Below, piece after piece: positions 6,743 to 50,135 of a stretch of DNA of 50,135 bases (position 1 is its first letter; each line of letters begins with the position of its first letter). The stretch covers positions 1 through 50,135 of the forward strand of contig CAISZK010000073.1 in the NCBI GenBank assembly GCA_903889915.1, read 5' to 3'. The notes under the pieces were generated by a model. The model ran no database searches. It saw only the letters and a list, made by a program, of their open reading frames with translations, and was not told the DNA's origin. The position numbers were made by a program, and so were the translations under genes. The stretch comes from an uncultured Bacteroidota bacterium (GTDB lineage Bacteria; Bacteroidota; Bacteroidia; Bacteroidales; CG2-30-32-10).

Positions 6743-6949
6743 TACGGATTCGGTATTTACCTTAAGCCATATCCTTTTTTTCTATCCAAAAACGATTATT
6801 TCAGAATGGAAGTAAATGAAGATTTTTTTATTATGTTTGCATCATGAAAATCATTATCCAAAAATAAATGATTATAAATGAACAATCCCAGTAGCTTTAA
6901 AAAATTAAGGACTTTGGAAAGAGTATTTTGGAGATTGCGGAAATACGAT

Positions 6950-11900: not shown

Positions 11901-12372
11901 TTTCTGCAATGTCAACTTTTACATTTTTCCCACAGGGAAAATCAGATTTTTCAATCACATCATTGATCATCCCCTGTAACCCCATTGACCGGCCATCATC
12001 AGGAGAATAAATACGTGTGATACCATAAGCATGTAACTCATCAATTTCTTCAGGAAGGATTACACCACCTCCACCACCAAAAATCTTTATGTGCGTACTG
12101 TTGTTCTCTTTCAACAGGTCGTACATGTATTTAAAGAATTCAATATGCCCTCCCTGATAGGAAGTCACCGCAATGGATTGAACATCCTCCTGGATTGCAC
12201 AATCAACAATTTCCTGCACGGAGCGATTATGTCCCAGGTGTATTACTTCAGCGCCTGTTGACTGAATGATCCTCCGCATAACATTGATCGAAGCATCGTG
12301 TCCGTCAAACAATGAAGCTGCTGTCACTATCCGGATATGGTTCTTTGGCTTATAGGCTGGTTGTAGTTGCAT
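8992..12372 (-). CDS. icmF: Fused isobutyryl-CoA mutase IcmF (B12 domain, G-protein chaperone, mutase)
   Basis: This is a 1126-residue single-chain acyl-CoA mutase using adenosylcobalamin to interconvert isobutyryl-CoA and n-butyryl-CoA (some IcmF also act on isovaleryl-CoA). Domain order: a B12-binding domain (about 12-140) with the cobalt ligand His25 in LFDGHDAS; a MeaI-type GTPase (about 190-420) with Walker [13 protein letters not shown] around Lys209 and NKFD; then a linker and the TIM-barrel mutase (about 545-1126). Substrate-site residues are Phe576 (GVFPFKREG) and Gln775 (DQGQNTCIF). By alignment from memory these replace the Tyr and Arg of methylmalonyl-CoA mutase, so the isobutyryl/butyryl type is favoured. 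It is divergent from butyrate kinase, a sensible partner. The frame is intact. Confidence 0.95.
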
Positions 12373-27615: not shown

Positions 27616-28164
27616 TTGAAAAAAGATTTAACTTATTACACGGCTGATTTTTTATCGCAAAACCATTTAATAAAAAAGCAGGACGTGATTAACGGATTTC
27701 ATAATAATAATAAGGTAAAATTAGCAGGGAAGCTTTCCTGCGTTTCTTATTTTATCGCAACTTCCTGTGTAACATCCGCTTTATCCTTTATTTCCCAAGT
27801 ATCCAACTTAAGTAATTACTATTTCGGCTGTAGGCGACCGGCCTTCGGCTGTAGGCAACAGTGGTTCGCCTATAGGCTACTGGTGTTCGCCTGTAGGCGA
27901 CTGGCCTTCGCCTATAGACGACTGGCTGTCGGATGTAGGCTACTGGTGTTCGCCTATAGGCTACTGACCTTCGCCTATAGACGACTGGCTGTCGGATGTA
28001 GGCTACTGTGGCTCGGATGTAGCCGATTTATCGTCACCTTTAGCAAATCATGGCTCAACTATTCCCTAAGTAATTTTGAGAATTATAAAAACAACCTGCG
28101 CTACAATTCATTTTCATTAATACCAGTTACAGTTTCAAACAATGTTCTTAATAATCTAATTTAA
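27616..28164 (+). CDS. Doubtful reading frame containing the 21-bp array
   Basis: A TTG-started frame of 182 residues. The first 70 residues look like ordinary protein with a Ser/Leu/Cys-rich, weakly hydrophobic middle (SYFIATSCVTSALSFIS). The array then reads as nine 7-residue repeats of the type FAYRRLA / VGCRLLV, very rich in Arg, Cys, Leu and aromatic residues, before a Ser/Asn-rich end. The frame stays open through the array because each unit is 21 bp, which is also why open frames here mean little. It ends 28 bp before the next gene. It may be a real repeat protein or simply non-coding. I lean towards non-coding. Confidence 0.25.
   Translation: MKKDLTYYTADFLSQNHLIKKQDVINGFHNNNKVKLAGKLSCVSYFIATSCVTSALSFISQVSNLSNYYFGCRRPAFGCRQQWFAYRLLVFACRRLAFAYRRLAVGCRLLVFAYRLLTFAYRRLAVGCRLLWLGCSRFIVTFSKSWLNYSLSNFENYKNNLRYNSFSLIPVTVSNNVLNNLI
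27823..28025 (+). repeat. 21-bp tandem repeat array, nine units plus a partial tenth
   Basis: The units are 21 bp each, for example TTCGCCTATAGGCTACTGG followed by two variable bases. The core is self-complementary: GCCTATAGGC is a perfect palindrome, and variants GCCTGTAGGC and GGCTGTAGGC keep the pairing ability. Variation is not random. A set of units recurs in the order C-D-A-C-D, giving a 63-bp higher-order repeat. The array lies just upstream of the hypothetical gene at 28193. The sequence is unrelated to the 42-bp array at 6476 but shares its 21-bp half-unit and hairpin design. Confidence 0.9.
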
Positions 28165-32101: not shown

Positions 32102-32503
32102 ATGAAGAGGTACCTGTTAGACACAAACATTTGTATATTTTTTTTGAAAGGAAAATATCAATTGAATGAAAAGTTGAAAAATATTGGTTTGAAAAATTGT
32201 TTTATTTCAGAAATAACATTAGCAGAATTAAAGTTTGGTGCTGAATGTAGTAACAAGGTCGAAGCCAACATGAAAATGATTGATGCTTTTTCTAAAGAAT
32301 TTGCTGTCATACCAATTTTTTCTGCTCTTAATATTTATGCAAAAGAGAAAGCAAAATTAAGAAGGACTGGAAAAATAATTGATGATTTCGATATTCTAAT
32401 AGGAGCTACTGCAATATCAAATGATATGGTAATGGTAACTGATAACGAAAATCATCTTAACCGACTTTCCAAAATTAAAATTGAAAATTGGATAGCCCGA
32501 TAA
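32102..32503 (+). CDS. vapC: PIN-domain toxin, VapC family
   Basis: This 133-residue PIN-domain ribonuclease has its acidic residues in place: Asp7 in YLLDTNICI, Glu in EITLAELKFGA, Asp in IDDFDILIGATA and Asp in VTDNENHLNRL. VapC toxins cut tRNA or rRNA when freed from their antitoxin. It follows the antitoxin by 12 bp, so they are co-transcribed. Complete and apparently functional. Confidence 0.92.
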   Translation: MKRYLLDTNICIFFLKGKYQLNEKLKNIGLKNCFISEITLAELKFGAECSNKVEANMKMIDAFSKEFAVIPIFSALNIYAKEKAKLRRTGKIIDDFDILIGATAISNDMVMVTDNENHLNRLSKIKIENWIAR

Positions 32504-32568
32504 ATTTTTATTTGACAATTCTGTTGTGAAAAATTCATCATCAATACAAAATTGAAAAAAATATAGTG

Positions 32569-32919
32569 ATGAAAATAAAACCAATAAAAACTGAGCAGGA
32601 TTATAACAAATCCATCAAAAGAATTGAAGTACTTTGGGGAGCAAAAAAAAATACTGACGAAGGGGATGAGCTTGATCTGCTATGTACATTGGTTGAATCA
32701 TACGAAATGATTCATTATCCAATCGCCCCTCCTGATCCCATAGATGCTATTAAATTCCGAATGGAACAAATGGGAATGACCAAAACTGATATGGCCAAAT
32801 ACTTAGGAAGCCAAAGCAGGGTTAGTGAGGTTCTGAGCAGAAAAAGACAACTAACATTAAAAATGGTGAAGTCGTTATACAAAGGGCTGAAAATACCTGC
32901 AGAGATATTATTAGCCTGA
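32569..32919 (+). CDS. HigA-type antitoxin / XRE regulator without an adjacent HigB
   Basis: This 116-residue protein starts at ATG 32569 (a GTG immediately before would add one residue). The N-terminal helices read DELDLLCTLVESYEMIHYPI, followed by PPDPIDAIKFRMEQMGMTKTDMAKYLGSQSRVSEVLSRKRQLTLKMVK, an XRE helix-turn-helix of the HigA class. Full HigA proteins of this type normally pair with a RelE-like HigB encoded upstream. Here the gene upstream is vapC, 65 bp away, and nothing like HigB is seen. It may be an orphan antitoxin, a regulator of the vapBC-like module, or the survivor of a lost pair. Confidence 0.85.
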   Translation: MKIKPIKTEQDYNKSIKRIEVLWGAKKNTDEGDELDLLCTLVESYEMIHYPIAPPDPIDAIKFRMEQMGMTKTDMAKYLGSQSRVSEVLSRKRQLTLKMVKSLYKGLKIPAEILLA

Positions 32920-36264: not shown

Positions 36265-36511
36265 AAAAATATTTTACCTCAATCATAAACTCACTCCATA
36301 TCTAACTTTTTAAATATTTATTTTTTAACAAACTAATTCTCTCTATAAGGCATCTTGTTGAATCTTCTGTTTTTTATAATGAGAATTTAAAATTGTAAGG
36401 AATGTCAACACAAAAGCTACAAGTTACTAGAGATTTAGGAAATCTTTTATTTTAGCGAAATATTAGATAACTATTAATTATAATGCTACAACACGTCATT
36501 TTCCGCATATT

Positions 36512-37165
36512 ATGCTTATTCGTAATTACAATACAACTTTTAAAAGAATTGAAAAGACAGATCTTGAAACCCTTAGATACTGGAGAAACTCACACGATAT
36601 TAATCAGTTTATGGAATACAGGGAATATATTACGCCCGAAATGCAATTAAATTGGTTTAACAAAATAAATAATATCAGCAACTTCTATTTTCTAATAGAA
36701 TGTAATGGTGCGAATGTTGGTCTTATTAATTGTAAAGACATAAATAACAATGAAAAGAAATTTGAAGTGGGTATTTTTATTTTCGAAAACGTTAATAGAA
36801 ACAACATTATTTTTCCAATTTCATCATTAGTAATTTGTGAAACTATAGCCGATTTTTTTAAAATAGAAACTATTGAAACTCATATTTTAACAACAAATAT
36901 ATCATTCTCCAAAATGCTCATAACTTTAGGTTATAAATTATGTGAGAGCCAGGAAAGGATATTAAATCAAAAATATTTTATTGAGAAACCTGATATGTTA
37001 AAAACATTTCAATATCTCAGAACTCATTTAGTTAAGGTGCATGGCGAACAAAAAAAAACCAAGATTATTTTTAACAATAGTGACTTGGTTGAAATAAAGG
37101 ATTTTTTCTTAAATTCCTATCATAGAATGCCAAACAGTTTAAAGCAAAAATATTCAATAAATTAA
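36512..37165 (+). CDS. GNAT-family acyltransferase (RimJ/RimL or PseH-like)
   Basis: This 217-residue protein has an N-terminal GNAT fold: TDLETLRYWRNSHDINQFM, YITPEMQLNWF, NVGLINCKDINNNEKKFEVGIFI and ETHILTTNISFSKMLITLGY, the usual order of strands with the W-R-N motif seen in PseH/FlmH and RimJ/L enzymes. It should transfer an acetyl or acyl group to an amine, for example an amino sugar. The last 50 residues lie beyond the domain. It is the first gene of the AT-rich right-hand region and is unaccompanied. The ACP genes 4-9 kb downstream could supply an acyl donor, but that is inference. Confidence 0.72.
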   Translation: MLIRNYNTTFKRIEKTDLETLRYWRNSHDINQFMEYREYITPEMQLNWFNKINNISNFYFLIECNGANVGLINCKDINNNEKKFEVGIFIFENVNRNNIIFPISSLVICETIADFFKIETIETHILTTNISFSKMLITLGYKLCESQERILNQKYFIEKPDMLKTFQYLRTHLVKVHGEQKKTKIIFNNSDLVEIKDFFLNSYHRMPNSLKQKYSIN

Positions 37166-37714
37166 ATATCATCGCTTGAAAATATATTTTGAAAATTTCT
37201 TTAACAACTTTAAGTAATATGGTTCTTTTTATTGATTTTAGATATTGTCAAAAACTGCTTGTCCACTTGAAGCAAGTTATATATTGATTAAATTTACTAA
37301 ATAGGATGATTGTTTTACAGATTATTACGATATCCTTATTCAATTGCTGAGTGAAAAATAATTAAATGAAAAGAGTATATAACAAATTAGAGGAACTCTA
37401 AAGATTGAAACAGACTTTATTACTTTAGTAAAAAAGATAGCCAATAACGTCTCTGACATTATTACTTTATTGGTATTGAATAAAGTAATAAAGTTTAAGA
37501 TATGGTGTTTTGTTAAGGTTACTTAAGTTATAAAGTTTTTATCCGGTATGATTAAACAAACCAAAATAAAACAAACTTGTAAGTCCACAGAAGTATAACA
37601 CTTTCAAATGATTAATGACTTGCTTGTTGTGGACAAGCAATTTGTCAAAATTATAAAAAAAATAAAATACTTTTCAATGAAATTGAATATTTAAGCGGAA
37701 TATAAATAAAAATA
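37166..37714. other. Gene-free gap holding a MITE-like element
   Basis: There is no coding frame of note. It contains an imperfect inverted repeat of about 35 bp at its two ends (near 37246-37280 and 37616-37650), with perfect cores GCTTGTCCAC (37257-37266) and GTGGACAAGC (37629-37638). It also contains an internal perfect 13-bp inverted repeat CTTTATTACTTTA (37415-37427) and TAAAGTAATAAAG (37481-37493). A small non-autonomous element or a decayed insertion sequence would look like this. Confidence 0.5.
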
Positions 37715-39100
37715 ATGAAAGTGGTAGTTTTCAATGGTAGTCCTAAAGGTGATAGAAGTATCACTTTAAAGTATGTTTTATACCTACAGAATAAATTTCC
37801 AGATATAATATTTAAAATATTTCACATAGTGTCAGTCGAAAACAAAAATGAAAATGAAATTAGAAAAGATATCTTAGAAAACCTCCTGTTTGAAATTGAA
37901 AAATCAGATATTGTACTATGGGCATTCCCTGTTTATATATTTCATGTTCCATCTCAATTGCTACATTTTATTGAGATTGTTCGAAAACAAAAAATATCAG
38001 ATGTTTTTTCCGGCAAATACGCTGCAATAATTAGTACATCAATTCACATTTCTGGCACTCTGGCAATAAACTATATTCACGCTGTTTGTGACGATTGGAA
38101 TATGAAATTTACGGGGACTTTTAACTGTGAAACTAATGATTTGCTCAAGTCGGTTTACCGTGAAAAACTGATATTTTTTTTCAACAGTATTCTTAATACA
38201 ATAGAAAAAAAGTATGAATTAGCCTTTGAATTTGCACCTGTTAAAAAACATGAGTTTATATACCAAAAAGGTCATAAAGTTATAAGTATTGATACTTTAC
38301 AAAAAAAAATTCTTATTATTACTGATTCCACAGACAAGGAAAGTAATCAGCATTTTATGACTGAATATTTTTCAGATCAGTTTACAGTTAGACCTGAAAT
38401 TATTAACCTAAATGAAATTTATTTTAAGGGAGGGTGCCTGGGTTGTTTGAAATGTGGATACGACAATCACTGTGTTTACCAAAGTGCAGACGAATTTACT
38501 GATTTTTACAAAGCGAAAGTGTTAATGGCTGATATTATAATTGTTTCTGGAGATATAAAATTCCGATATCTGTCTCATGTCTGGAAATTGTTTTTTGACA
38601 GGAGTTATTTTTTCAATCATACACAACCACTGGCAGGGAAGCAGGTTGGAATGATATTAACAGGTGAAGTCAGCCATATCGTCGGTTTGAAAGAAATGTT
38701 ATCAAATTATTACTTAATACAGGACGCCAATATTGTGGGATTAGTTACAGATGAGTCTAAAAATTCTGAAACTATAAGCAGACTACTTGGAAGTCTCGCA
38801 GATAGAATAATATATGCCGCGGTGCACAATGTTTTAAACACCTTGCCTTCGGAAGTTATTGCAATGAAATACATACTAGAAGATGCATTAAAAAATAGAT
38901 TTGGGTTCATAAACTATTCGGCCTATCGTTATTATAATAAAAATCATAAGTTTCAAAAAACGACGCAAATGTATGGTAAACTAGTAATTAACAAAATATT
39001 AATTCTACTTATCAGATTCCAGACAATCAGGAACTTTATCCATCCCTATTTCGTTTCTTCTATTTTGAAAAAATTCAATAAGCTGCTAGAAAACTCTTAA
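37715..39100 (+). CDS. Tandem flavodoxin-fold oxidoreductase with a Cys cluster
   Basis: This 461-residue protein has two NADPH-dependent FMN reductase-like halves. The first (1-170) begins VVVFNGSPKGDRSITLKY, an FMN phosphate loop, with the WAFPVYIFHVPSQLLHF strand-helix. The second (about 197-370) begins KILIITDSTDKESNQHF and carries GGCLGCLKCGYDNHC (Cys241, 244, 247, 253), close to the iron-sulfur flavoprotein pattern, then LSHVWKLFFDR. The C-terminal 90 residues are basic with a hydrophobic stretch and could touch the membrane. The double fold with only one Cys cluster is unusual. It may be an electron donor or quinone/disulfide reductase. The nearby radical SAM proteins would need such a donor, which is a guess. 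Confidence 0.75.
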   Translation: MKVVVFNGSPKGDRSITLKYVLYLQNKFPDIIFKIFHIVSVENKNENEIRKDILENLLFEIEKSDIVLWAFPVYIFHVPSQLLHFIEIVRKQKISDVFSGKYAAIISTSIHISGTLAINYIHAVCDDWNMKFTGTFNCETNDLLKSVYREKLIFFFNSILNTIEKKYELAFEFAPVKKHEFIYQKGHKVISIDTLQKKILIITDSTDKESNQHFMTEYFSDQFTVRPEIINLNEIYFKGGCLGCLKCGYDNHCVYQSADEFTDFYKAKVLMADIIIVSGDIKFRYLSHVWKLFFDRSYFFNHTQPLAGKQVGMILTGEVSHIVGLKEMLSNYYLIQDANIVGLVTDESKNSETISRLLGSLADRIIYAAVHNVLNTLPSEVIAMKYILEDALKNRFGFINYSAYRYYNKNHKFQKTTQMYGKLVINKILILLIRFQTIRNFIHPYFVSSILKKFNKLLENS

Positions 39101-39336
39101 AAATACCAATACTTATACTTGAGGACCTTGATATTAGATTATACTGTTTAAAACTTGAAAATTCGGAATAGTCCAGACAATGGTGAAATTAATCCGAGCT
39201 TTTTAGTTATATAGAGTACAGGAAATCGCAAAATTAATAGATTTAACAATATATCTATTTTAATTATTTAAAAAAGCATTAAGCAAAATAACTTTTTAGC
39301 GAAAAAAATCAATTAGAAAATTAAACAGTAAACATT

Positions 39337-40632
39337 TTACTTATAAACACTTCTATATATAAAATTAATAACTAACAACTTAGACGCAACATAAATATTT
39401 CTAATATTTTTTATAGTTTTGAAGTACATTATAAAAATATTTTTAAGACTATAAATATTTCTGGCGCCTTCAAAAAAAACTATTTCAAGGTGCTCTGGTT
39501 TGATATTTTTTGGTTGAAAAACTACTTTCTTCCAATCATATAATACCCAATCACAAGGATAATTATTACAAATAATTCTATTTTCTTTATTTAGTTTTGT
39601 ATACAAATCTGTAGCAGGAAATGGTGTTAATAGAGTTAGTTGAAATGCATCAAAAGGATTTTCTAAAAGAAAATTTATTCTTTGCCTTATAATTTCCTCT
39701 GTATCATTATCGAATCCAAAAATAAATCCAGCTTGAATAGCAATTCCATATTTGTGAGTAATTTTTAATGCATTTGCATATGATTTATCACCATTATTAT
39801 AGTTAAATTGTTTTCTCATTTCTTTTAAACAAGTCATATTTTCAGATTCCAGACCAATAAAAATCATAAAACAACCACTCCGCTTAGCAATTTTTAAAAC
39901 TTCCTCATCAAAAGCAAATTTAATTGATGTTTGGGTAATCCATTGTTTATTAAGTTTTCTCTTGATCATTCCGTTAAACAAATCAATTGTTCTTTGTCTA
40001 TCTTGTTCGTCAAATCCAAATAAATTATCATCCACAAAGAAAATCTCTTTCTGTTCTACTTTTCCAATTTCATCCAATACATCATTTATGGGCTTTTGCA
40101 AATAGTTTTTATCATAAATCTTTGAAACAGAGCAGAATTCACAATTATATTTACATCCTCTTGTTGTTTCTATACTGGCAATTGTATATTTACTATTGAA
40201 AATCTGATGATTTGCAGAACTAATCATAATTTTATCAGATTTATATATTCTTTTACAAACGCCTATATCAAAATCATTTAATATTTCCCTCCACAAATCT
40301 TCAGCATTACCTATAGCTATAGTATTAACATAATTTATCGCTTCCTCTGGCATAAGAGTGGTATGAATACCACCTAATACAGTGTGTATATTATGATTTC
40401 TATATTCAGCAGCTATTTGATAAGCTCTATTAATGTGTTTTGTAAAAGAAGTTAGAGCAACAAGATCAGCTTCTTTAAACTCAAAAATATCAAAATTTTC
40501 GTCAATAATTTCAATATCCCATTCTGAAGGCGTCAAATTAGCAAGAATACCTAAAGCCAAAGGCTGATGCATTAGTTTAAGATAGGGTCTGCTTTTATCA
40601 ACAGGATTTATCAGTAAAAGTTTTTTTTTCAT
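39337..40632 (-). CDS. B12-binding-domain radical SAM protein
   Basis: This 431-residue protein starts with a B12-binding-like Rossmann domain (1-140: LLINPVDKSRPYL, VALTSFTKHINRAYQIA, VLGGIHTTLMPEEA), then a radical SAM core with the cluster motif TTRGCKYNCEFCSVS (Cys160, 164, 167), FFVDDNLFG and GLES. The cobalamin-ligand DxHxxG is absent, as in many members of this class. Such enzymes methylate unactivated carbons or rearrange skeletons in lipid, cofactor and antibiotic pathways. It is read leftward, divergent from the acyl operon at 41501 across an 870-bp empty gap. The substrate is not predictable. Confidence 0.88.
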   Translation of the reverse strand: MKKKLLLINPVDKSRPYLKLMHQPLALGILANLTPSEWDIEIIDENFDIFEFKEADLVALTSFTKHINRAYQIAAEYRNHNIHTVLGGIHTTLMPEEAINYVNTIAIGNAEDLWREILNDFDIGVCKRIYKSDKIMISSANHQIFNSKYTIASIETTRGCKYNCEFCSVSKIYDKNYLQKPINDVLDEIGKVEQKEIFFVDDNLFGFDEQDRQRTIDLFNGMIKRKLNKQWITQTSIKFAFDEEVLKIAKRSGCFMIFIGLESENMTCLKEMRKQFNYNNGDKSYANALKITHKYGIAIQAGFIFGFDNDTEEIIRQRINFLLENPFDAFQLTLLTPFPATDLYTKLNKENRIICNNYPCDWVLYDWKKVVFQPKNIKPEHLEIVFFEGARNIYSLKNIFIMYFKTIKNIRNIYVASKLLVINFIYRSVYK

Positions 40633-41500
40633 TTCTGAATATGGTATCTTAAATTATCACTACAATATTATATTTTCATTCTAATCACTACTTAAAATTC
40701 AATTCTAAAATTACAAATTCTCAGATCACAAATTTTATTAATAAATCACAATTGAGCCCACTCCGAAAATGAATAATTGCGAAAAATACCACTAAAACAC
40801 TAAGACTCGAAAAAACACAAAAGACAAGTTTTTAATAAATTAGAATTTCGTGTAATTTAGTGTTTTTATGCTTTTGTGCTTTTGTGGTAAAAAATGACTT
40901 TTCGGAGAAGCCTCCCAATTCTAACTTTTACAAATTACTTTCTCGCCACTTCTATTGTAAAGTTAATAAACATAATGCATTATACACCTTCTCGAAAATA
41001 CCCTTCAACAACAAATTATATTTTGGAAATGTAAAATATCATACTACAAATTAGTCAAACTCAAATTTGCACAAGCATTAGTATGAAAATTAAGTAAATT
41101 AGCTACTTATACTATTCAACGTTAAGATATTAATTTTATAAAAAGAATATTAATTATAAGTCCTCAAAAATTTTTGCGAAGTTATAAAAAATTATTTAAT
41201 TTTGTGAAATTTTTTGATTGCAAATTTTGCTGAAATATATTTTTCATTTTCACAGCCATAAAATCCAAAAACTATTTTGCTAATATCTGATTATTAGTGC
41301 ATAAATAAATCATACAAAATTGTCACATAGTGAAAAGCCATTCTGAAACTCGCAAAAAGCAGCTTCGCTTATTTCATTTTTTAATAAAACTTGTATAATG
41401 ATAAATTACAAGAGCCTTGTAATGTTTGATATATATGGTCCACTGAGGCAATTAAGAATTTTCATATTAAAAATTAAGTAAAATAGTGCTTTAAAAAATA
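40633..41500. other. Gene-free gap with a 147-bp imperfect inverted repeat
   Basis: The gap is AT-rich and non-coding. CTCCGAAAA (40761-40769) and TTTTCGGAG (40899-40907) are perfect partners. Between them AAAACACTAA (40794-40803) pairs with TTAGTGTTTT (40857-40866), and ACCAC/GTGGT also match. The remaining 600 bp showed no gene and no consensus promoter that I could pick out. Confidence 0.4.
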
Positions 41501-41803
41501 ATGAAAACTAAAATTAAATTCAAAATTGATGAAATCATTAAATTATGCGTCAATGACTATCTTGTATCAGTAGGTGAGCCAAATATAATTACAAATAAAA
41601 CTGTTCTATTTGGATCTGGGGCACTATTAGATTCAATGGGACTTGTCAATGTAATTATTGACATTGAGACATCTTTAAAAAAAATAAATTATCCAATAAC
41701 TTTAACTTCAGAGAAAGCATTTTCATTGAAACATAGCCCTTTCAAAAGCGTACATTCTTTATCGAATTATATATATATAGAAATCAAAAACATTGAAAAC
41801 TAG
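41501..41803 (+). CDS. Acyl carrier protein-like (first ACP of the island)
   Basis: This 100-residue helical protein carries the phosphopantetheine site Ser45 in ALLDSMGLVNVI. The DSMGLV motif differs a little from the fatty-acid ACP motif DSLDxVE, which suggests a dedicated carrier. It is the first gene of a four-gene operon. Its end overlaps the next start by 11 bp. A housekeeping role is unlikely because the neighbours are not fatty-acid genes. Confidence 0.85.
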   Translation: MKTKIKFKIDEIIKLCVNDYLVSVGEPNIITNKTVLFGSGALLDSMGLVNVIIDIETSLKKINYPITLTSEKAFSLKHSPFKSVHSLSNYIYIEIKNIEN

Positions 41804-42629
41804 TATTGCAAATCATTATGATTATGTCACTAATATCTGGCCATTTATCCTGGGCAAACATTTTCATTATGGGTTTTACAAAGATAAATCAATAAGCCTT
41901 GATAATGCAACAGATAATCTTGTTTTAGAACTGTCTTCATTACATGAATTTGGAATTGACTCAAAGATTCTTGATGTTGGATGTGGAATAGGTCAGCCAG
42001 CAATAATATTACACTCAAACTACAATTGCAAAATTTGGGGAATCTCAAACAGTTTATCTGGAGTAGAGATCGCTAATAAACATATTAAAGATTTAGGAAA
42101 AGAAAAGGAAATAATTTTTGAATTTGGAGATTCTATAAACAACAAACTACCTGATAATTTTTTCGATTTAGCATGGATAATGGAAGTAACACATTTGATT
42201 AAAGAAAAAGAAGGCGCTTTATTAGCTGTATCAAAAAAATTGAAAACAAAAGGATTCTTACTTCTGAGTGACTTATGCATTACACTAAAATTCACATTAA
42301 AAGAAATTTTTGAATATAAAAACGAAATCGAAGTTCTTCATCAAACATTCGGATATTCTATTATAAAGTCTATTGATTTTTACAAAGAAACAATTTATCA
42401 CATAGGCCATTCCATAAAAACGATTAAAGACATTTCGGAAAATGTGAATCCTACAATTGAAGCCTGGAGAACAAATGCGATAAAAAATAAGGATCAAATT
42501 ATCAAAATTAGTAATGATCATTATTATTCACTTTTATTACAATCCTTTGACATCTTAAATTTCTTTTTTAAAAATAATTATTTGGGCTATTTCTTGTTAT
42601 ATTCACAAAAAAATGAAAATGCAATTTAA
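41793..42629 (+). CDS. SAM-dependent methyltransferase, class I
   Basis: This 278-residue protein has a Rossmann-fold SAM site KILDVGCGIGQPAIIL (about 58-73), then NFFDLAWIMEVTHLI (motif II/III region). The N-terminal HYDYVTNIWPFILGKHFHYG resembles small-molecule and tocopherol-type methyltransferases. The start is TTG at 41793, inside the ACP gene (11-bp overlap). It is chosen because the HYDYVT segment belongs to the family and no in-frame ATG precedes it. It ends 17 bp inside the SDR gene, so it is translationally coupled. The target may be a carbon or oxygen of the ACP-bound acyl group, or of its sugar acceptor. Confidence 0.85.
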   Translation: MKTSIANHYDYVTNIWPFILGKHFHYGFYKDKSISLDNATDNLVLELSSLHEFGIDSKILDVGCGIGQPAIILHSNYNCKIWGISNSLSGVEIANKHIKDLGKEKEIIFEFGDSINNKLPDNFFDLAWIMEVTHLIKEKEGALLAVSKKLKTKGFLLLSDLCITLKFTLKEIFEYKNEIEVLHQTFGYSIIKSIDFYKETIYHIGHSIKTIKDISENVNPTIEAWRTNAIKNKDQIIKISNDHYYSLLLQSFDILNFFFKNNYLGYFLLYSQKNENAI

Positions 42630-43323
42630 AAAAACTATTTTAATAAGTGGTACTTCAAAAGGAATTGGTAAGTTTCTTGCAGAATATTATTTAGGGTTGA
42701 ATTTTTATGTTATTGGATTTTCCAGGTCTAAATCAACAATTACTAAAATAAATTATTTACATTATATAGCAGATATATGTGATGAAAAAGAGGTGAATAG
42801 TATGATTTTTGAAATTTCAAAGAATAATTACAAAGTTGATTACCTGATTAACTGCGCTGGAATAGCATCAATGAACCATTCCTTATTAACCCCATACTCT
42901 TTTGCCGATAAAATTTTACGGACCAATTTTTTAGGTACGTTTCTTCTTAGCAGAGAAGTTGGGAAAATGATGATAAAGCATAAATTTGGCAGAATCATTA
43001 ATTTTTCCTCAATAGCGACAATCATTAAAACAGAAGGCGAAAGTGTTTACATTGCATCAAAACAAGCAATAGAATCGCTCACAAAAACATTATCATTTGA
43101 ATTTGCTCCTTTCAATATTACAGTAAATGCAATCGCTCCATGCCCCATGGAAACTGCTATGATATCTAATATGGATAAAATCAAACTTAATCTGTTCATA
43201 GATAAACAAACCATTAAAAGATTCTGTGATATAAATGATATTACAAATATTACCGACTTTTTTATTGACAATATGAGCAGTTTAATAACGGGTCAAGTTA
43301 TATATTTAGGAGGGGTTCAGTAA
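42613..43323 (+). CDS. SDR-family oxidoreductase (3-ketoacyl reductase-like)
   Basis: This 236-residue short-chain dehydrogenase has its NAD(P) loop SGTSKGIGK at 12-20, NCAG at about 80-83 and the catalytic set Ser133, Tyr146 and Lys150 (SVYIASKQ), with the C-terminal GQVIYLGG typical of FabG relatives. It would reduce a 3-ketoacyl group on ACP to the 3-hydroxy form. The start ATG overlaps the methyltransferase end. A second ATG two codons later is possible. The stop and the next start share TAATG. Confidence 0.88.
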   Translation: MKMQFKKTILISGTSKGIGKFLAEYYLGLNFYVIGFSRSKSTITKINYLHYIADICDEKEVNSMIFEISKNNYKVDYLINCAGIASMNHSLLTPYSFADKILRTNFLGTFLLSREVGKMMIKHKFGRIINFSSIATIIKTEGESVYIASKQAIESLTKTLSFEFAPFNITVNAIAPCPMETAMISNMDKIKLNLFIDKQTIKRFCDINDITNITDFFIDNMSSLITGQVIYLGGVQ

Positions 43324-44636
43324 TGATTAAATCTTTAATTAACCATATTAAAGAAAATAGTTCATTTCAAACCTACTTGTTTATTCAACATGAAGAGAAA
43401 ATATCTTCAAAATATTTTTTGGATAAATTTAACAAATATTATACTTCCTTATCTCGAAACGGAATTCATCAAGGGGATATTATTTTGCTTGACTGTATAT
43501 TTAATATAGAAGCAATTATATATCTTATATCGTTATTATACAATAATAACATTGTTTTCCTTTGTAATAAAAGTAAATATCATCCACTTATTACTCCATT
43601 CTATGATTTTCACATTAATTACAATATTATAACTAAAAATATCAAAAAAGATCTTTCCCAACAAAGGAAAATAAAACAATTATTTACAAATAATTCTCCA
43701 GGGCTAATTTTGCAAACTTCTGGCACTACTGGTAGTCCCAAATTTATTATTCACGATATTAACAAACTTCTCATTAAATACAGACCGAAACAAGATTATA
43801 TTAAATATGCTACAATTTACACCATTGATCATATTGCAGGACTTGATTGTTTGTTTTATTCATTATATTCTTTATATACATTTGTAAATATTGATAGTGG
43901 CAATGTGGAATTTTTCTTAAACACTATTGCTACTAACAGCGTCGAACAGATATCACTTACACCCTCTTACCTAAATTTAATTTATTTTAGCAACTTATAT
44001 AAAAACTATAACTTAAATACTGTAAAAACTGTAATTCTTGGCTCTGAATATTTAAATGAAAATACCATTTCACATATTCATTGCATTTTTAACAATAAAG
44101 TAAAAATTATTCATAAGTATGGTGCAACAGAATTTGGAAGTTTATCATCTATTACTAATACTGAAAATCCCCAATTGATCAATATTGATAAATATAAATT
44201 TAAAATAAAAAATGGTTGTCTGTATATTTATTCTCCGTCAATTATGCTTGGACATATTTTCGAAAACAAAGTCATAAAAAACAAAACCAAATGGTATAAT
44301 ACGAATGATTTAGTTGAAATGGAAGGAAGTTGGTTGAAAATTGTTGGGAAGAATGATTTTACAATTAATGTTGGTGGCAATAAAGTGATTCCAAAAGAAG
44401 TTGAAGATTTATTAAACACTATCCCAAATATTCAATATTCGAAAGTCTATGCCATCACTAATTCTATTATGGGACAAGTTGTAGGGGCTGATATTATTAC
44501 TAAAGAAAACGAACTCAAAGAATCGTTAATTAAACGAATCAGGGCATTTGCTATTCATAAAATTGAGTCCTATAAAATACCAGTTGTAATAAATATTATA
44601 GATCAACCCAATATTACTGAACGGATGAAATCTTAA
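43323..44636 (+). CDS. AMP-dependent acyl/aryl ligase
   Basis: This 437-residue ANL-superfamily enzyme has the P-loop QTSGTTGSPK (131-140), YGATEFGS and the hinge YNTNDLVEMEG...KIVGKNDFTINVGGNK, with the C-terminal Lys in NITERMKS two residues before the end. It activates a carboxylic acid as its adenylate and should load it onto one of the two ACPs. The chain is shorter than usual acyl-CoA synthetases (about 500-550), which is normal for ACP-loading ligases of small clusters. It is the last gene of the ACP-methyltransferase-SDR-ligase operon and converges on the KAS III gene. Confidence 0.88.
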   Translation: MIKSLINHIKENSSFQTYLFIQHEEKISSKYFLDKFNKYYTSLSRNGIHQGDIILLDCIFNIEAIIYLISLLYNNNIVFLCNKSKYHPLITPFYDFHINYNIITKNIKKDLSQQRKIKQLFTNNSPGLILQTSGTTGSPKFIIHDINKLLIKYRPKQDYIKYATIYTIDHIAGLDCLFYSLYSLYTFVNIDSGNVEFFLNTIATNSVEQISLTPSYLNLIYFSNLYKNYNLNTVKTVILGSEYLNENTISHIHCIFNNKVKIIHKYGATEFGSLSSITNTENPQLINIDKYKFKIKNGCLYIYSPSIMLGHIFENKVIKNKTKWYNTNDLVEMEGSWLKIVGKNDFTINVGGNKVIPKEVEDLLNTIPNIQYSKVYAITNSIMGQVVGADIITKENELKESLIKRIRAFAIHKIESYKIPVVINIIDQPNITERMKS

Positions 44637-44660
44637 ATGTCTCTAAAAAAGAATTTTTTG

Positions 44661-45716
44661 CTAAATCTCAATGACAGAAGGGCAAATAATTTTTGACACA
44701 TCAAACAAAGCACAACCCCAAGACAAACCTGCACCAAAGCCGGCAACTAAAATCTTTAAACTTTCAGACTTAACCTGAAGGTTAAGTTCTGAAACTATTG
44801 TAAGTGGGATTGAAGCGCCTACCGTGTTCCCAAACCTGGCGAGGGAATTTGGCGCTTTTTGTGGATCAATATGTAATAATTTACAAATACTTTTATTTAT
44901 CAAGGCATTCGCTTGATGAAGAATAAAATAATCAACATCATTAATTGAAGATTTTGCGAATTCTAATGTCTCCGTTATAGAAGGAGGAACCTCTCTTAAA
45001 GCGAATTTAAATACATTTAAACCATTCATAGAAGTATGAACATTTTGCCTAATTACCCCATCTTCATATTTTACATAATTAAGAGATTTCTTATTAAAGA
45101 TATTTCTCACCCCTCCATCTTTAATTAAAATATCTAAGTATCCGGCACCATCGGATTTAAGATTAAAAAACAAACTTTCACTCTCATTTTCACTAAATTC
45201 AACAGCAGTAGCCGTACCTGCATCACCAAATATTGGATATGTCGTTTTATCACGATAGGAAATTCTATAGGAGTTTACATCTCCAACTAACAATAAACCT
45301 TTTTTATTTTCAGACGAGACAAATTTACTTATGACAGATAATCCATACACATATCCGGAACAAGCTTGGCTGATATCAATACAAATTGTATTTTTACTCA
45401 ACCCCAATTTATGTTGCAAAATATTTGACGTGGAAGGTGATATATAATCAGGAGTAACTGATACGAAAACTAGGATACTAATTTCATTTTTGTCCCATTC
45501 CAACTCCTCTATCAATTTATTTGCAGCAATTGCACATAAATCAGATGCCGTTATTCCAATATTGACATGTCTTTTTTCAAAAATACCAGTAGTTTCAATA
45601 ACCCTTTCCCGAAGCTTCTTTTTAATCCAATTGTAATCAAGAATACGTACAATATTTTTGGGGACACAGGAGGAAATACCCACAATTTTGATCTTTGAAG
45701 TTTTAATAAATGACAT
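44661..45716 (-). CDS. Beta-ketoacyl-ACP synthase III-like enzyme
   Basis: This 351-residue FabH-type condensing enzyme has Cys119 (SQACSGYVYG), His267 (FILHQANALINKS) and Asn297 (RFGNTVGASIPL), a complete KAS III catalytic triad. It would join a starter thioester to malonyl-ACP once. It need not be a housekeeping FabH: it is coupled to a dedicated ACP (start overlaps the ACP stop as TAATG) and converges on the ligase operon. Relatives of KAS III can also make C-O or C-N bonds, so acyl transfer is an alternative. Confidence 0.9.
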   Translation of the reverse strand: MSFIKTSKIKIVGISSCVPKNIVRILDYNWIKKKLRERVIETTGIFEKRHVNIGITASDLCAIAANKLIEELEWDKNEISILVFVSVTPDYISPSTSNILQHKLGLSKNTICIDISQACSGYVYGLSVISKFVSSENKKGLLLVGDVNSYRISYRDKTTYPIFGDAGTATAVEFSENESESLFFNLKSDGAGYLDILIKDGGVRNIFNKKSLNYVKYEDGVIRQNVHTSMNGLNVFKFALREVPPSITETLEFAKSSINDVDYFILHQANALINKSICKLLHIDPQKAPNSLARFGNTVGASIPLTIVSELNLQVKSESLKILVAGFGAGLSWGCALFDVSKIICPSVIEI

Positions 45717-45955
45717 TAGGCTCTCCCTTTCTTCTGTATTGTAATAAATAAATCATTAATGGTTTTTGCTTCGAAGATATCATTTTTCTCAATATCAACT
45801 CCAAAATATTCTAATACAAACACGATTGTAAGCATGACATTTAAAGAATCCCACCAATCTTTCATATCACTAATTCTAGTGCCCGGAGTTATACTTCCTT
45901 TCGGTAAATCATTAAACTCCTCTTCAAATTTTTTTATAAATATATCTACGTCCAT
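45716..45955 (-). CDS. Acyl carrier protein (second ACP of the island)
   Basis: This 79-residue ACP carries Ser37 in DWWDSLNVML, the phosphopantetheine site. ATG at 45955 is preferred. A TTG two codons upstream would add two residues. It is upstream of, and overlaps, the KAS III gene by one base, so the two are one transcript. It carries its own motif (WDSLN) unlike the other ACP (DSMGL), so the two may hold different intermediates. Confidence 0.88.
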   Translation of the reverse strand: MDVDIFIKKFEEEFNDLPKGSITPGTRISDMKDWWDSLNVMLTIVFVLEYFGVDIEKNDIFEAKTINDLFITIQKKGRA

Positions 45956-45985
45956 AACCAAAATAAGAAATTATTCTTTGTACTG

Positions 45986-45993
45986 CAAAACTA
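45986..45993 (-). promoter_or_regulatory. -7 box (TAGTTTTG, minus strand) for the ACP-KAS III operon
   Basis: CAAAACTA on the plus strand is TAGTTTTG leftward, 30 bp before the ACP ATG. No -33 partner at standard spacing. Confidence 0.4.
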
Positions 45994-46184
45994 TAAATAA
46001 TAGCTTAAAAAGCAACTCAAATAAGTTGTTACTATAAAATTCTATAGAAACCTAATATTCAGACAATTTTTCTCGCAATTATTTCATCTAATACTTTATT
46101 ACCTTTTCTATTATTCCTTGACTCAATCTTTTAAATAATTCTTCATTTAGCGATTTGATCAGTACATTTTTTTCAATGTTTAAG

Positions 46185-47096
46185 CTATTTGCAAATTTCA
46201 ATTGCTATTGGAAACTTAAATTTCTTCTTACTAATCATTTTTAAATAATACTTAATAATTAACAAAAAACCCATCTGAGAAACAAAAATAATTATTAAAA
46301 AAATAAAATAATAATTCATTTCATTTTTTAAATAAGTATTCATTAGTATAACACACACAAGTAAAACACTAGCGATACAAAAAAACACAAAAAAAACATT
46401 TAGAATTACTTGAATTATTATAGTATAGTTAACTAACCAACCAAATGTAATTCTAATAAGTTTCCTTAAAGAATAACCACTTTTACCACTATCTCTTTCT
46501 ACCCTAATTACATGTTGGAATGACAACATAATATTTCTGAAAATAAATTCGTCAACCAATGGTACATGTTTTTGATGGTTTAAAATATCAAATATTACAT
46601 TGCCATCAATCAAACGAAAAGAAGACCATTTAATATCTTTATAATAAAAAAACGCAACAAGTTTTATTAAAATAACTTTGCCAAATTTAATTAAAAACCT
46701 TCCTTTTTCCTCATACAATCCATAAACGATATTAGCTTGCGTTTCTATCTGTTTTAAAATAAGTTTTCCAATCTCTTCAGGCGGAATCTGAAGATCATCA
46801 TCAATAGTAATTACAAATCTTCCTGCCGCTAATGTAAAACCAAACAACGTGCTTGCATGCTGTCCGTAATTTTTGGTCAATTTAAAAGCTTTTACGATTC
46901 CAGGGTTTTCTTCATAAATTTTCTTTATGGTAGCCCAGCTATTATCTGATGAATGATCATCAATTAAAATAATTTCAAATTTATATTTTAACGAATAAAA
47001 CAACCTTGAAATTCTATCAACTAAAGAATAAATACTATTTTCTCCATTAAATACAGGTACAATGACAGTGTAATCATAATTACTAGTTACCTTCAT
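46185..47096 (-). CDS. GT2 glycosyltransferase with two C-terminal helices (GtrB/DPM1-like)
   Basis: This 303-residue protein has an N-terminal GT-A fold: VIVPVFNGENSI, IILIDDHSSDNSW, the YGQHASTLFGFTLAAG acceptor loop and the metal site ITIDDDLQIPPEE. Two long hydrophobic helices follow (about 235-258 and 267-290). This is the plan of undecaprenyl-phosphate sugar transferases (GtrB, ArnC, DPM1), which place a sugar on a lipid carrier for use outside the cytoplasm. It is read leftward beside the ACP operon. It supports a glycan- or lipid-linked role for the island but does not prove it. Confidence 0.88.
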   Translation of the reverse strand: MKVTSNYDYTVIVPVFNGENSIYSLVDRISRLFYSLKYKFEIILIDDHSSDNSWATIKKIYEENPGIVKAFKLTKNYGQHASTLFGFTLAAGRFVITIDDDLQIPPEEIGKLILKQIETQANIVYGLYEEKGRFLIKFGKVILIKLVAFFYYKDIKWSSFRLIDGNVIFDILNHQKHVPLVDEFIFRNIMLSFQHVIRVERDSGKSGYSLRKLIRITFGWLVNYTIIIQVILNVFFVFFCIASVLLVCVILMNTYLKNEMNYYFIFLIIIFVSQMGFLLIIKYYLKMISKKKFKFPIAIEICK

Positions 47097-47809
47097 AATT
47101 ATTTCTTAGCGAATTCTTATTTTAAAAATTTGAATATTTTTACAGATCCTCATGTTTATAAATTTTTTAATTTGATAGATTAACAATCTCTTGGTAAATA
47201 TTAAAACAATTTTTTGATTAGTAAATAGCATTAGCTTCCTCTGTAATTTCTCAAAAAGTTGCCTGCCCTAAAGTCATCGGATGACTATCCGCTCTATTAA
47301 AACAAGATTCCCTCATAATTTCATTCTGTATCATGTGAAAAGGCATTTTTTTATAGGGGAAATAAAATAAATAATTACCGTTCTTCATGTGTTTATTCTT
47401 TGCTATTCTCTTCAATAATAAGCTGTTCTACAAACATCCTTTGCCACCGCGAAGCAATTTTCTACAATAATTAGATGTTCTACAAACATCTCTTGAAATT
47501 CAATACTAGTGCTACATTGCGAGCCTTTGTAAAAGGCTTTATTATTGTAGTAGAAAACATCTCCGAAACCCTAGATGTTTGTAGAACATCAAATTTTATT
47601 GTTTTTTAAAATGGTAATGATTGTCTTTAAATCCCCATAATAGCACTATTTATCTTTATAAAGTTAAATTCATTAAAATTATAAGCCAAAATACAGTTGA
47701 GATGTCTTTTGCATTTTACACACTATTATTATTCATCATCATTAAAATACTGACAAAATATTCAAAGGTTCTAAAACAGAATTCTTTCATTGAGTAAGAA
47801 TATATCTGA
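47097..47809. other. Gene-free gap with iterated GATGTT..AACATC palindromes
   Basis: No gene is seen. A 17-bp partial palindrome GATGTTCTACAAACATC occurs at 47474-47490, in a near copy at 47422-47438, and inverted at 47574-47590, exactly 100 bp from the second copy. TTTTCTACAATAAT (47458-47471) pairs with ATTATTGTAGTAGAAAA (47541-47557) with a three-base gap. Inside that arm AGCCTTTGTAAAAGGCT (47522-47538) is a perfect 7-bp hairpin. The rest looks like featureless AT-rich DNA. Confidence 0.5.
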
Positions 47810-49219
47810 TTAAATTTTTTCGTTTTCCGGAGTATTAATTTTGAGTTTATTTACACAATCCTGAATTTTTTCATTTGACAATCCACCTTTCTTTGCTTTT
47901 TCCAAATATATGAATCCATTAGTTCCATACATCGACAATATCTCTCCAAAAACTGATTTGCCAAAAGATCCATTCATACATTGAAAGCTTTGTTGTTCAT
48001 CAAAACTAAGTAATGAACAATTTGTGTTGATCATTACTGGAAGAAAATCTGATGGATAATTATAAATTTTTATCCTGAAAATGTTTGCAATAATAAGTTT
48101 CAAAGTTGGATATGCTATTTTTAATGTCTTAAATTTTATCAAAGAAAAAATTACAATCAGAAAGCCTAATAATTTAAGACCATAAGGTTTATTATTGAAT
48201 CGCAACCACCATTGTAGGCTTTTTTCTAATCTTTTCATATTCAGATAGGTTGTGACAGGTTGGACTTTCCCATTGCCTCTTACAAAAATCATTATTTGAG
48301 TGTATAGGCACAAGCGGATTTTAAAAAGATATAATGCTAATAGTATCAGTTTCTGCAAAGTGAATATCTCTTTCCTATCTTTGCCCTGAAAGTATTTATT
48401 ATAAATAGAATCCATGGCAATATCTGGCATCATCATTTGTGATTTTTCCATTTTATCGCTTCCGTTTCCCACCCATGAAAACCCATCAACAGAAATCACT
48501 TTAATAAACAATTTATCTTTTGCATATTCTATACATTCACTTATCACTTCTTCATTATATCCTTTAAATATAAGAGGCGTCAATATAGTAGCCATGCCAT
48601 TTTTTTCAAGATTTTTTAACGCCTCCATTTTTTCTTTATGAAAATTTTGACTAATTGGTAATTTTGTATTTAAATTTAACGCATGGACCGAAAGCCTGAT
48701 TTCATTAACTCCGGTAGCAATAATTTGTTTTAGAAATGATTCATCAGCCAGCTTTATCCCGTTTGAAGCTAACGCAACAATAACTCCTCTACTAGTTGCC
48801 AGTTTAAGAATTTTAAAAATATCTTCGTTTACTGTAGGCTCACCGCCCGATATGCATATTTTTTTATAATGTTTGAAATTCACTAAAATGACTTTAAAAT
48901 CCTCTAGCGTGATATTATCATAATAGGGTAGCTGTGCTTGTAAATTGCAATAATCGCAATTCATGTTACATGAATAGTTAGTTAAGACCCAGCTCATTGT
49001 TATTCTTCCTTGTGGAGTAAATCCTTTTACTTTAAAGAAAAAACTATCCAAATCCGCATAATAATTACCATTAGAAGATAACAGAAAATTATAATCTCCA
49101 TGCTCCTCACATTTATGTCTTAAAAAAACATTTTTACCTTGCTGAATAATTTCCCCCTCAACTTCATTAGTACAATAAGGACAATAAGTTTTAGTTGTTC
49201 GTAGCAATTTTATTTCCAT
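47810..49219 (-). CDS. Radical SAM protein with N-terminal zinc-ribbon-like module (COG1964/Tes-like)
   Basis: This 469-residue protein has an N-terminal module with Cys13, Cys16, Cys37 and His40 (TYCPYC and CEEHGDY), which resembles the leading cluster of COG1964 radical SAM proteins, the group that contains the archaeal tetraether synthase and pterin methyltransferases. The radical SAM cluster is NYSCNMNCDYC (Cys84, 88, 91) and the SAM-binding motif is ISGGEPT (124-129). The C-terminal part is hydrophobic around 290-390, with NTNCSLLSFDEQQSFQCMNG near 410-430 as possible extra cluster ligands. It may act on a lipid, cofactor or peptide. The Tes link is from motif memory only. Confidence 0.82.
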   Translation of the reverse strand: MEIKLLRTTKTYCPYCTNEVEGEIIQQGKNVFLRHKCEEHGDYNFLLSSNGNYYADLDSFFFKVKGFTPQGRITMSWVLTNYSCNMNCDYCNLQAQLPYYDNITLEDFKVILVNFKHYKKICISGGEPTVNEDIFKILKLATSRGVIVALASNGIKLADESFLKQIIATGVNEIRLSVHALNLNTKLPISQNFHKEKMEALKNLEKNGMATILTPLIFKGYNEEVISECIEYAKDKLFIKVISVDGFSWVGNGSDKMEKSQMMMPDIAMDSIYNKYFQGKDRKEIFTLQKLILLALYLFKIRLCLYTQIMIFVRGNGKVQPVTTYLNMKRLEKSLQWWLRFNNKPYGLKLLGFLIVIFSLIKFKTLKIAYPTLKLIIANIFRIKIYNYPSDFLPVMINTNCSLLSFDEQQSFQCMNGSFGKSVFGEILSMYGTNGFIYLEKAKKGGLSNEKIQDCVNKLKINTPENEKI

Positions 49220-49247
49220 GAATTTTTTAAACCTAAAAATAATTATG

Positions 49248-49255
49248 CAAAGGTA
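49248..49255 (-). promoter_or_regulatory. -7 box (TACCTTTG, minus strand) for the radical SAM gene at 49219
   Basis: CAAAGGTA on the plus strand reads TACCTTTG leftward, 28 bp before the start codon. Confidence 0.4.
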
Positions 49256-49288
49256 GCAAAATTTTGAATAAGCTATTTTAAAAAAGTG

Positions 49289-49296
49289 TAATTTTG
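49289..49296 (+). promoter_or_regulatory. -7 box TAATTTTG for the right-edge radical SAM gene
   Basis: TAATTTTG at 49289 has TTTG at 49263-49266 upstream (22 bp apart, slightly long). It lies 71 bp before the ATG at 49368. Confidence 0.45.
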
Positions 49297-49367
49297 CATT
49301 CTACTTTAAGATTATTTTTAATCCCATTTTAGCATATTGCAAAGTTCATTTTAAATTCAAGAATTAA

Positions 49368-50135
49368 ATGACATTAAACTATTTAGAAGCACATGTTGTT
49401 GATCATTGCAATTTAAATTGTAAAGGATGTGGTCATTTTAGTCCTTTGATTAAGAATAAAGAATTTGCCAATTTTGACATTTATAAAAAAGACCTTAATC
49501 GATTAAGTGAAATGTTTACTACAATTAAATCATTTCATATTTTAGGTGGTGAACCATTACTAAATCCTCAACTGATTGATTTTCTCAAATATTCTAGAAG
49601 TATTTTACCTGCGTCAAATATTTACTTAGTTACAAATGGTATTTTACTTGAAAAACAAGATAAATCTTTCTGGAATAGCTGTAATGACAATAATATCGCA
49701 ATAAACCTGACATCCTATCCAATTAAAATTAATTTACCTAGTATCATTTCTATGTGCAGAAATTTTAATATCCGTTTTAATATCTCATTTGCTAAGAAAA
49801 AATTTATTAAAATAATAAATATCAGGGGGGATTCCAATCCAAGTAAAAGTTTTAAACTCTGTAAAAGTTTGTTTGCTTGTACTTTTTTAAAAAACGGACA
49901 TATTTACCCATGTGCTTTTTCATGCCATGTTAAATATTTCAATGATTTTTTTGGTCAAAAAATAAAAGCAGATGAAGCATTTAATGGAATTGATATTTAT
50001 TCAAATTCAGCAGCAGAAATACAGCAGTTTTTAAATAAACCCACTCCTTATTGCAAATATTGCACTAGTAAGCCACAATTTTTTGACTGGGGACTTTCTG
50101 AAAGAAAAATGTCTGAATGGATTGCAGAAGATAAC
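49368..50135 (+). CDS. Radical SAM protein, 5' part (continues past the right edge)
   Basis: This open frame starts at ATG 49368 (MTLNYLEAHVVDHC) and has no stop before the window ends, so only the first 256 residues are seen. The cluster motif is DHCNLNCKGCGHFSPL (Cys14, 18, 21), then FHILGGEPLLNP, the SAM-binding GGEP. Later cysteines in KLCKSLFACTFLKNGHIYPC and PTPYCKYC look like a SPASM or twitch auxiliary cluster region. The frame is divergent from the radical SAM gene at 47810-49219. Such proteins often modify peptides, sugars or cofactors. The substrate is unknown. Confidence 0.85.
   Translation, partial: MTLNYLEAHVVDHCNLNCKGCGHFSPLIKNKEFANFDIYKKDLNRLSEMFTTIKSFHILGGEPLLNPQLIDFLKYSRSILPASNIYLVTNGILLEKQDKSFWNSCNDNNIAINLTSYPIKINLPSIISMCRNFNIRFNISFAKKKFIKIINIRGDSNPSKSFKLCKSLFACTFLKNGHIYPCAFSCHVKYFNDFFGQKIKADEAFNGIDIYSNSAAEIQQFLNKPTPYCKYCTSKPQFFDWGLSERKMSEWIAEDN

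Follow-up and report, generated by a model that had tools for sequence, protein, structure and literature searches.

The AT-rich right-hand part (positions 36265-50135) of contig C73, from the draft genome of an uncultured Bacteroidota bacterium (order Bacteroidales), is a mosaic of two recurrent gene modules rather than a single new pathway. The window analyzed was this entire contig, 50,135 bases in length. Module A consists of genes for an acyl carrier protein (ACP2), a β-ketoacyl-ACP synthase III (KAS III), a family 2 glycosyltransferase (GT2), a GCN5-related N-acetyltransferase (GNAT), and a B12-binding radical S-adenosylmethionine (SAM) protein (B12-radical-SAM); module B consists of genes for a further ACP (ACP1), a methyltransferase, a short-chain dehydrogenase/reductase (SDR), and an AMP-binding acyl ligase (AMP ligase). 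We favor the interpretation that the island is a second, divergent version of an acyl-sugar cluster found across the host's order, in which a short, perhaps methylated, hydroxyacyl group would be formed on an ACP and transferred to the nitrogen of a 4-amino-deoxysugar of a surface glycan. This interpretation is built on gene content, intact catalytic motifs, and conserved neighborhoods, all of which were observed directly.

A KAS III gene cluster conserved across the host's order

Genes for an ACP, KAS III, SDR, ArnC-like GT2, and GNAT form a cluster, unnamed and found here, that is conserved across the host's order. Of the 247 genomes examined from the order, 37 encode a window-type KAS III (E ≤ 1e-75). 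Neighbors were counted at 39 KAS III loci, nearly all from this order, and included an SDR at 34 loci, an ACP2-type ACP at 29, a GT2 at 27, and a GNAT at 24, along with sulfotransferase and B12-radical-SAM genes (16 loci each), a TMTC-like GT-C protein with TPR (13), a flippase (12), AMP ligases of two types (13 and 5), and a WecE-type aminotransferase (6). Pfam and NCBIfam matched representative neighbors to Sulfotransfer_3, Polysacc_synt, and, weakly, PMT_2/TMTC; the AMP-binding neighbors in representative loci gave their best scores to fatty-acid-AMP ligases. The aminotransferase of several clusters scored above the WecE cut-offs, so the sugar in those relatives is probably a dTDP-4-amino-4,6-dideoxyhexose. 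The anatomy of the cluster is as expected if such a sugar were N-acylated and then transferred to polyprenyl phosphate.

The window KAS III shares 39-54% identity with its order-wide homologs, and GT2, GNAT, ACP2, and B12-radical-SAM are also homologous to their counterparts and mostly adjacent in those clusters. The KAS III tree placed the window protein in a 32-row clade (support 100/96), with the protein of locus L058 as its sister (99/94), and its catalytic triad was invariant across all homologs compared. The active-site serine is kept in both ACPs. The initial annotation had placed these residues at Ser45 and Ser37; the former is correct for ACP1, whereas the latter applies to ACP2 only when counted from an in-frame ATG, the residue being Ser39 from the TTG start two codons earlier. 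The end of the ACP2 gene overlaps the start of the KAS III gene by one base on the minus strand, with the genes for GT2 and a radical SAM protein resembling tetraether lipid synthase (Tes) located upstream. GNAT homologs with 29-45% identity directly follow the GT2 gene in many KAS III operons. The GT2 scored 95 bits on the ArnC model, below the cut-off of 529. Relative to the order-wide cluster, the gene order in the window is inverted and split; the window lacks the cognate SDR, the sulfotransferases, and the flippase, and it adds module B, a two-domain flavoprotein, and two more radical SAM genes.

Locus L058 (9593-15164) encodes KAS III and a two-domain flavoprotein, with apparent cysC, cysD, and cysN genes for 3'-phosphoadenosine 5'-phosphosulfate (PAPS) on the other side. 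Taken with the sulfotransferases that recur in sister clusters, these PAPS genes indicate that the glycan may be sulfated.

The same genome possesses another copy of the cluster. On contig C342, the ACP-KAS III-SDR-GT2-GNAT array is accompanied by genes for two sulfotransferases and a flippase-like protein, at a GC fraction typical of the host (0.373); on contig C241, a gyrase-type gene lies next to those for a TMTC-like protein and an AMP ligase. In a genome of the same family, the TMTC-like and gyrase-type genes are neighbors and adjoin the operon. Given this host-GC copy on C342 and C241, the island in the window is an extra, divergent set.

A B12-radical-SAM subfamily tracks the KAS III operon

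Homologs of the window B12-radical-SAM scoring above 300 bits formed one clade that includes the window protein and stands apart from lower scorers (SH-aLRT 95 in a quick tree). KAS III genes were located near 15 of 30 loci of this clade, and GT2 and GNAT genes near 12 each; none of the three was found near any of 21 control loci. At the genome level, KAS III was present in 17 of 22 genomes with the window-type clade and in 19 of 224 without it (Fisher p = 2e-12, a value that treats genomes as independent, without correction for phylogeny, and is therefore overstated). The linkage genomes span many families, and the control homologs show no link. KAS III-linked and unlinked members were intermixed within the clade, and the linkage must thus have been repeatedly gained or lost, or be hidden by contig ends. 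A scan of genome contigs with the B12-radical-SAM alignment reached relatives in Chloroflexota and Myxococcota; none of these near kin adjoined a KAS III of the window type, and the observed link was therefore confined to the order.

In loci L060, L066, L067, L068, L079, and L113, the KAS III operon is flanked by two or three divergent genes for B12-binding radical SAM proteins arranged in tandem, which suggests successive radical steps. Locus L113, with a full cluster and three B12-radical-SAM genes, lies on a contig titled Alphaproteobacteria; its KAS III falls inside the clade of the order, and the record is probably mislabelled or misbinned.

When compared with the PhpK, HpnJ, HpnR, BchE, and ladderane models, the B12 protein scored 90.9 bits at best, against a cut-off of 600, and it was below the cut-off of every model. 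Roles as a ladderane, hopanoid, or BchE enzyme were rejected on these NCBIfam cut-offs. The open-access literature yielded no glycan cluster with a B12-radical-SAM, a ketosynthase, and a sulfotransferase. The novelty lies in the set of genes brought together and chiefly in the link, seen throughout the order, between one B12-radical-SAM subfamily and the KAS III operon.

Module B is an ACP-SDR-ligase triplet with an inserted methyltransferase

The four genes of module B lie on the plus strand and overlap in turn by 11, 17, and 1 bases. Ligase searches in the order and phylum, with annotation of the matches, revealed an ACP-SDR-ligase triplet in L023, L025, L026, and L028, and ACP1 is 36-48% identical to the ACPs of these triplets. 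The window SDR shares 42-50% identity with the SDRs next to the closer ligases (the triplets) versus 22-28% with those of KAS III operons. In L031, a small gene reading as an ACP precedes a ligase and an SDR near apparent flagellin genes. Module B is thus the triplet with a CMAS-like methyltransferase inserted within it, and modules A and B were found apart in other genomes.

The flavoprotein and the two additional radical SAM proteins

The second half of the two-domain FMN reductase contains a CxxCxxCxxxxxC motif at residue 241, as in iron-sulfur flavoproteins, and the protein may be an electron donor. The same two-domain flavoprotein is encoded directly after the sister KAS III gene in L058 (one other locus). 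Relatives with 30-37% identity occur in five genomes, four of them outside acyl or glycan loci.

Tes carries a radical SAM CX3CX2C motif and a rubredoxin motif, CX2CX20CX2H (motif definition from PMC9433317). The Tes-like protein of the window aligned to tetraether lipid synthase (PDB 7tol, E = 5e-21) and keeps both motifs, the first as C84/C88/C91 and the second, as read from the sequence, as C13/C16/C37/H40. The cysteines that bind the N-terminal auxiliary [Fe4S4] cluster of Tes (C73, C77, and C80) have no aligned counterparts, and the score on NCBIfam NF045702 was 109.8 bits against a cut-off of 450. The protein is a distant relative and not a Tes. No relatives at E ≤ 1e-20 were detected in the 246 other genomes of the order, and 248 genomes of the phylum contained three weak ones, two of whose loci were inspected and are devoid of glycan context. 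The third radical SAM protein had one weak relative at E ≤ 1e-15 in the same 246 genomes. All three radical SAM proteins possess CxxxCxxC and are mutually unlike, as originally described. We did not count the Tes-like and third proteins in the pathway, and their membership is uncertain.

Composition and layout of the island

All of the genes listed in the initial annotation are present (Table 1), and its reading of an accessory, AT-rich island with a short acyl assembly line (activation, one condensation, ketoreduction, and methylation) is supported, with precedents. The fall in GC that it reported after the PorE-like gene was confirmed: the GC fraction is 0.378 for positions 1-36264 and 0.276 for positions 36265-50135, with a sharp step at ∼36.3 kb (all 1-kb windows ≥0.317 before 36 kb and ≤0.318 after). 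The PorE-like gene adjoins the AT-rich part on its left; in six relatives, it was followed by other genes or a contig end, and no island was seen there. The island is an accessory gene set, probably gained by horizontal transfer. Its right end lies beyond the contig end, where the terminal gene is cut at position 50135. The genes do not form one operon, since two groups face each other, 41501-44636 (plus strand) and 44661-49219 (minus strand), and long intergenic gaps are present at 37.2-37.7, 40.6-41.5, and 47.1-47.8 kb. All reading frames are intact and open.

Table 1. Predicted genes of the AT-rich island and the basis of each assignment.
Gene product	Position	Strand	Basis
GNAT, PseH-like N-acyltransferase (predicted, 4-amino sugar)	36512..37165	+	Pfam Acetyltransf_3/_4
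Two-domain FMN reductase	37715..39100	+	Pfam FMN_red, two stretches
B12-binding radical SAM protein	39337..40632	-	Pfam Radical_SAM and B12-binding above cut-off; CxxxCxxC
ACP1, Ser45 in DSMGLV	41501..41803	+	Likeness to triplet ACPs; no Pfam match
SAM-dependent methyltransferase, CMAS-like	41793..42629	+	Pfam CMAS, Methyltransf_31/_11/_25
SDR ketoreductase, module B	42613..43323	+	YxxxK kept; identity to triplet SDRs
Short AMP-binding acyl ligase, 437 aa	43323..44636	+	Pfam AMP-binding above cut-off
KAS III	44661..45716	-	Cys119-His267-Asn297 triad intact; tree
ACP2, Ser in WDSLN	45716..45961	-	Weak PP-binding match
GT2, ArnC-like polyprenyl-phosphate sugar transferase (predicted)	46185..47096	-	Pfam Glycos_transf_2
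Radical SAM protein, distant Tes relative	47810..49219	-	PDB 7tol E = 5e-21; HMPTM zinc ribbon; pathway membership uncertain
Third radical SAM protein, CNLNCKGC, cut by contig end	49368..50135	+	Pfam Radical_SAM; pathway membership uncertain

The island contains no dehydratase, enoyl reductase, or KAS I/II gene, in agreement with the initial annotation. Outside it, a KAS I/II-like gene lies at 7624-8835, and the adjacent region 8992-12372 encodes a fused protein with B12-binding, MeaB, and mutase parts, of the isobutyryl-CoA mutase type. Elsewhere in the window, the frames at 6485-6847 and 27616-28164 are built of short internal repeats (e.g., RKTVASFRKEVASL) and are probably repeats rather than genes. 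A PIN-domain-like and HTH-like pair at 32102-32919, a few kilobases to the left of the island, resembles a toxin-antitoxin pair by eye.

Proposed pathway and competing explanations

In the proposed pathway, the AMP ligase would charge an ACP with a short acid, or KAS III would condense an acyl-CoA with malonyl-ACP. The SDR would then reduce the β-keto group, and the CMAS-like enzyme could methylate the chain or the sugar. The GNAT would take the acyl group from the ACP and attach it to the amino nitrogen of a nucleotide-bound 4-amino-4,6-dideoxy sugar; we infer this transfer from documented precedents, which in outline support the earlier suggestion of GNAT-dependent acylation of an amino sugar. 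The ArnC-like GT2 would hand the N-acylated sugar to polyprenyl phosphate for flipping and attachment to the surface glycan. The B12-radical-SAM, perhaps with electrons from the two-domain flavoprotein, might alter the acyl chain or sugar further, by C-methylation or another radical reaction, although both this reaction and the final product are guesses. A bolder version, which we regard as possible yet doubtful, holds that the B12-radical-SAM subfamily, in some loci with a dedicated flavoprotein, tailors the ACP-made acyl group or the amino sugar before export through radical chemistry, for instance by methylating an unactivated carbon, in an order-conserved surface-glycan pathway absent from the literature searched.

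Several features weigh against the assignment of the island to an acyl-sugar pathway. No nucleotide-sugar genes are present on the contig, which ends at position 50135, and the island genes occupy both strands with wide gaps between them. The SDR that normally directly follows KAS III is missing and the sole SDR is of the module B type; both ACPs would thus depend on a single SDR, unless the C342 copy contributes. The GNAT scored 55.5 bits on the PseH model TIGR03585, below its cut-off of 93.1, and its assignment to a 4-amino sugar is therefore tentative. Linkage support is lacking for the Tes-like and third radical SAM genes, both of them rare in the order, and the p-value of the B12-radical-SAM linkage is inflated as described above.

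Some of these features would also be explained if two independent acyl-modification cassettes and unrelated cargo had gathered in one AT-rich hotspot, with module B using sugars made elsewhere, module A being a decaying duplicate of the C342 cluster, and the radical SAM genes belonging elsewhere. The separation of the modules in other genomes, the absence of a module A SDR, the split of this module across both strands, the long gaps, and the rarity of the two unlinked radical SAM genes fit such an origin. We nevertheless consider it rather unlikely, because the frames are all intact with the KAS III triad kept, the sister KAS III in L058 is followed by the same flavoprotein, and linkage of the B12-radical-SAM with KAS III extends throughout the order. 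The initial annotation had joined all twelve genes in one pathway, a proposal not sustained by the separable modules and the near absence of relatives of the Tes-like and third radical SAM proteins in the order. The neighborhood conservation on which it had been staked was recovered in part, for ACP2-KAS III-GT2-GNAT with the B12-radical-SAM, for ACP1-SDR-ligase, and, at one locus, for KAS III with the flavoprotein, but not for those two proteins.

The acyl line, the Tes-like protein, and the B12-radical-SAM could alternatively yield an unusual membrane or capping lipid with a cross-linked or C-methylated chain, the GT2 and GNAT serving only as decoration. The alignment of the Tes-like protein to tetraether lipid synthase, its retained rubredoxin motif, and the B12 protein's matches to lipid-type models are consistent with this idea. 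These scores, however, are far below the curated cut-offs (88/577.6 bits for HpnJ, 77/650 for HpnR, 75/360 for ladderane, and 110/450 for Tes), the Tes-like protein lacks the N-terminal auxiliary cluster, and the neighbors of the relatives are glycan genes, all of which makes a lipid product improbable; synthesis of a long chain was rejected because the island encodes no dehydratase or enoyl reductase. Less probable still is a chimeric origin of the AT-rich part, by misassembly or misbinning of DNA foreign to the organism. The sharp GC step and the draft state of the metagenome-assembled genome (476 contigs, 4.28% contamination) are compatible with a chimera, but the nearest kin of KAS III and the B12-radical-SAM are in the same order, and a GC shift is usual in glycan islands.

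The acyl-sugar interpretation places this one unusual island in a family that can be tested, in which an ACP-KAS III-SDR-GT2-GNAT operon recurs in the order, accompanied by a B12-radical-SAM subfamily. Should the radical enzyme act on the acyl sugar, it would represent a new kind of chemistry for bacterial surface glycans. The order was represented here mainly by draft genomes, and a recurrent cluster offers many chances of finding a cultivable member.

Comparison with known systems

The initial annotation knew of no named pathway with this gene set, yet the same kinds of genes occur in three described systems (PMC3927599, PMC6519341, and PMC7874193), which we likened to the window by gene function and not by protein sequence. 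The viosamine island of Pseudomonas syringae comprises vioA, vioB, vioM, vioR, vioS, vioT, and acp; mutants and mass spectrometry established a requirement for vioA, vioB, vioR, vioM, and vioT in decorating flagellin with N-(3-hydroxybutanoyl)-2-O-methyl-viosamine, and vioS (KAS III) and acp lie within the same island (PMC3927599). Like the window, it combines KAS III, SDR, ACP, acyltransferase, and methyltransferase, which there serve to add an N-acyl group and a methyl group to a surface-glycan sugar of the 4-amino-4,6-dideoxy type. Unlike the window, it contains a sugar aminotransferase, lacks an AMP ligase, radical SAM proteins, and a second ACP, and uses VioT for transfer to the flagellin rhamnan instead of an ArnC-like GT2.

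In Flavobacterium psychrophilum, also a member of the Bacteroidota, the O-antigen carries a proven 3,5-dihydroxyhexanoyl amide, for which wfpC-wfpG are the proposed biosynthetic genes (PMC6519341). These R-group genes resemble the window in encoding an ACP, ketosynthases, a ketoreductase, and an acyltransferase, with proposed acylation of Qui2NAc4N. They differ in having two ketosynthases and a PglD-type acyltransferase and in naming no radical SAM protein, ligase, or methyltransferase for the R-group. The group II flagellin glycosylation islands of Aeromonas, in the portion of the source consulted (PMC7874193), hold ACP, SDR, and ligase genes, a triplet comparable to ACP1-SDR-ligase. As described in that portion, no methyltransferase lies within the triplet, KAS III is not mentioned, luxE/luxC are present, and the islands are linked to pseudaminic acid genes and flagella, in contrast to the window. 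Named precedents thus exist for this kind of system, and the radical enzymes are the added element.

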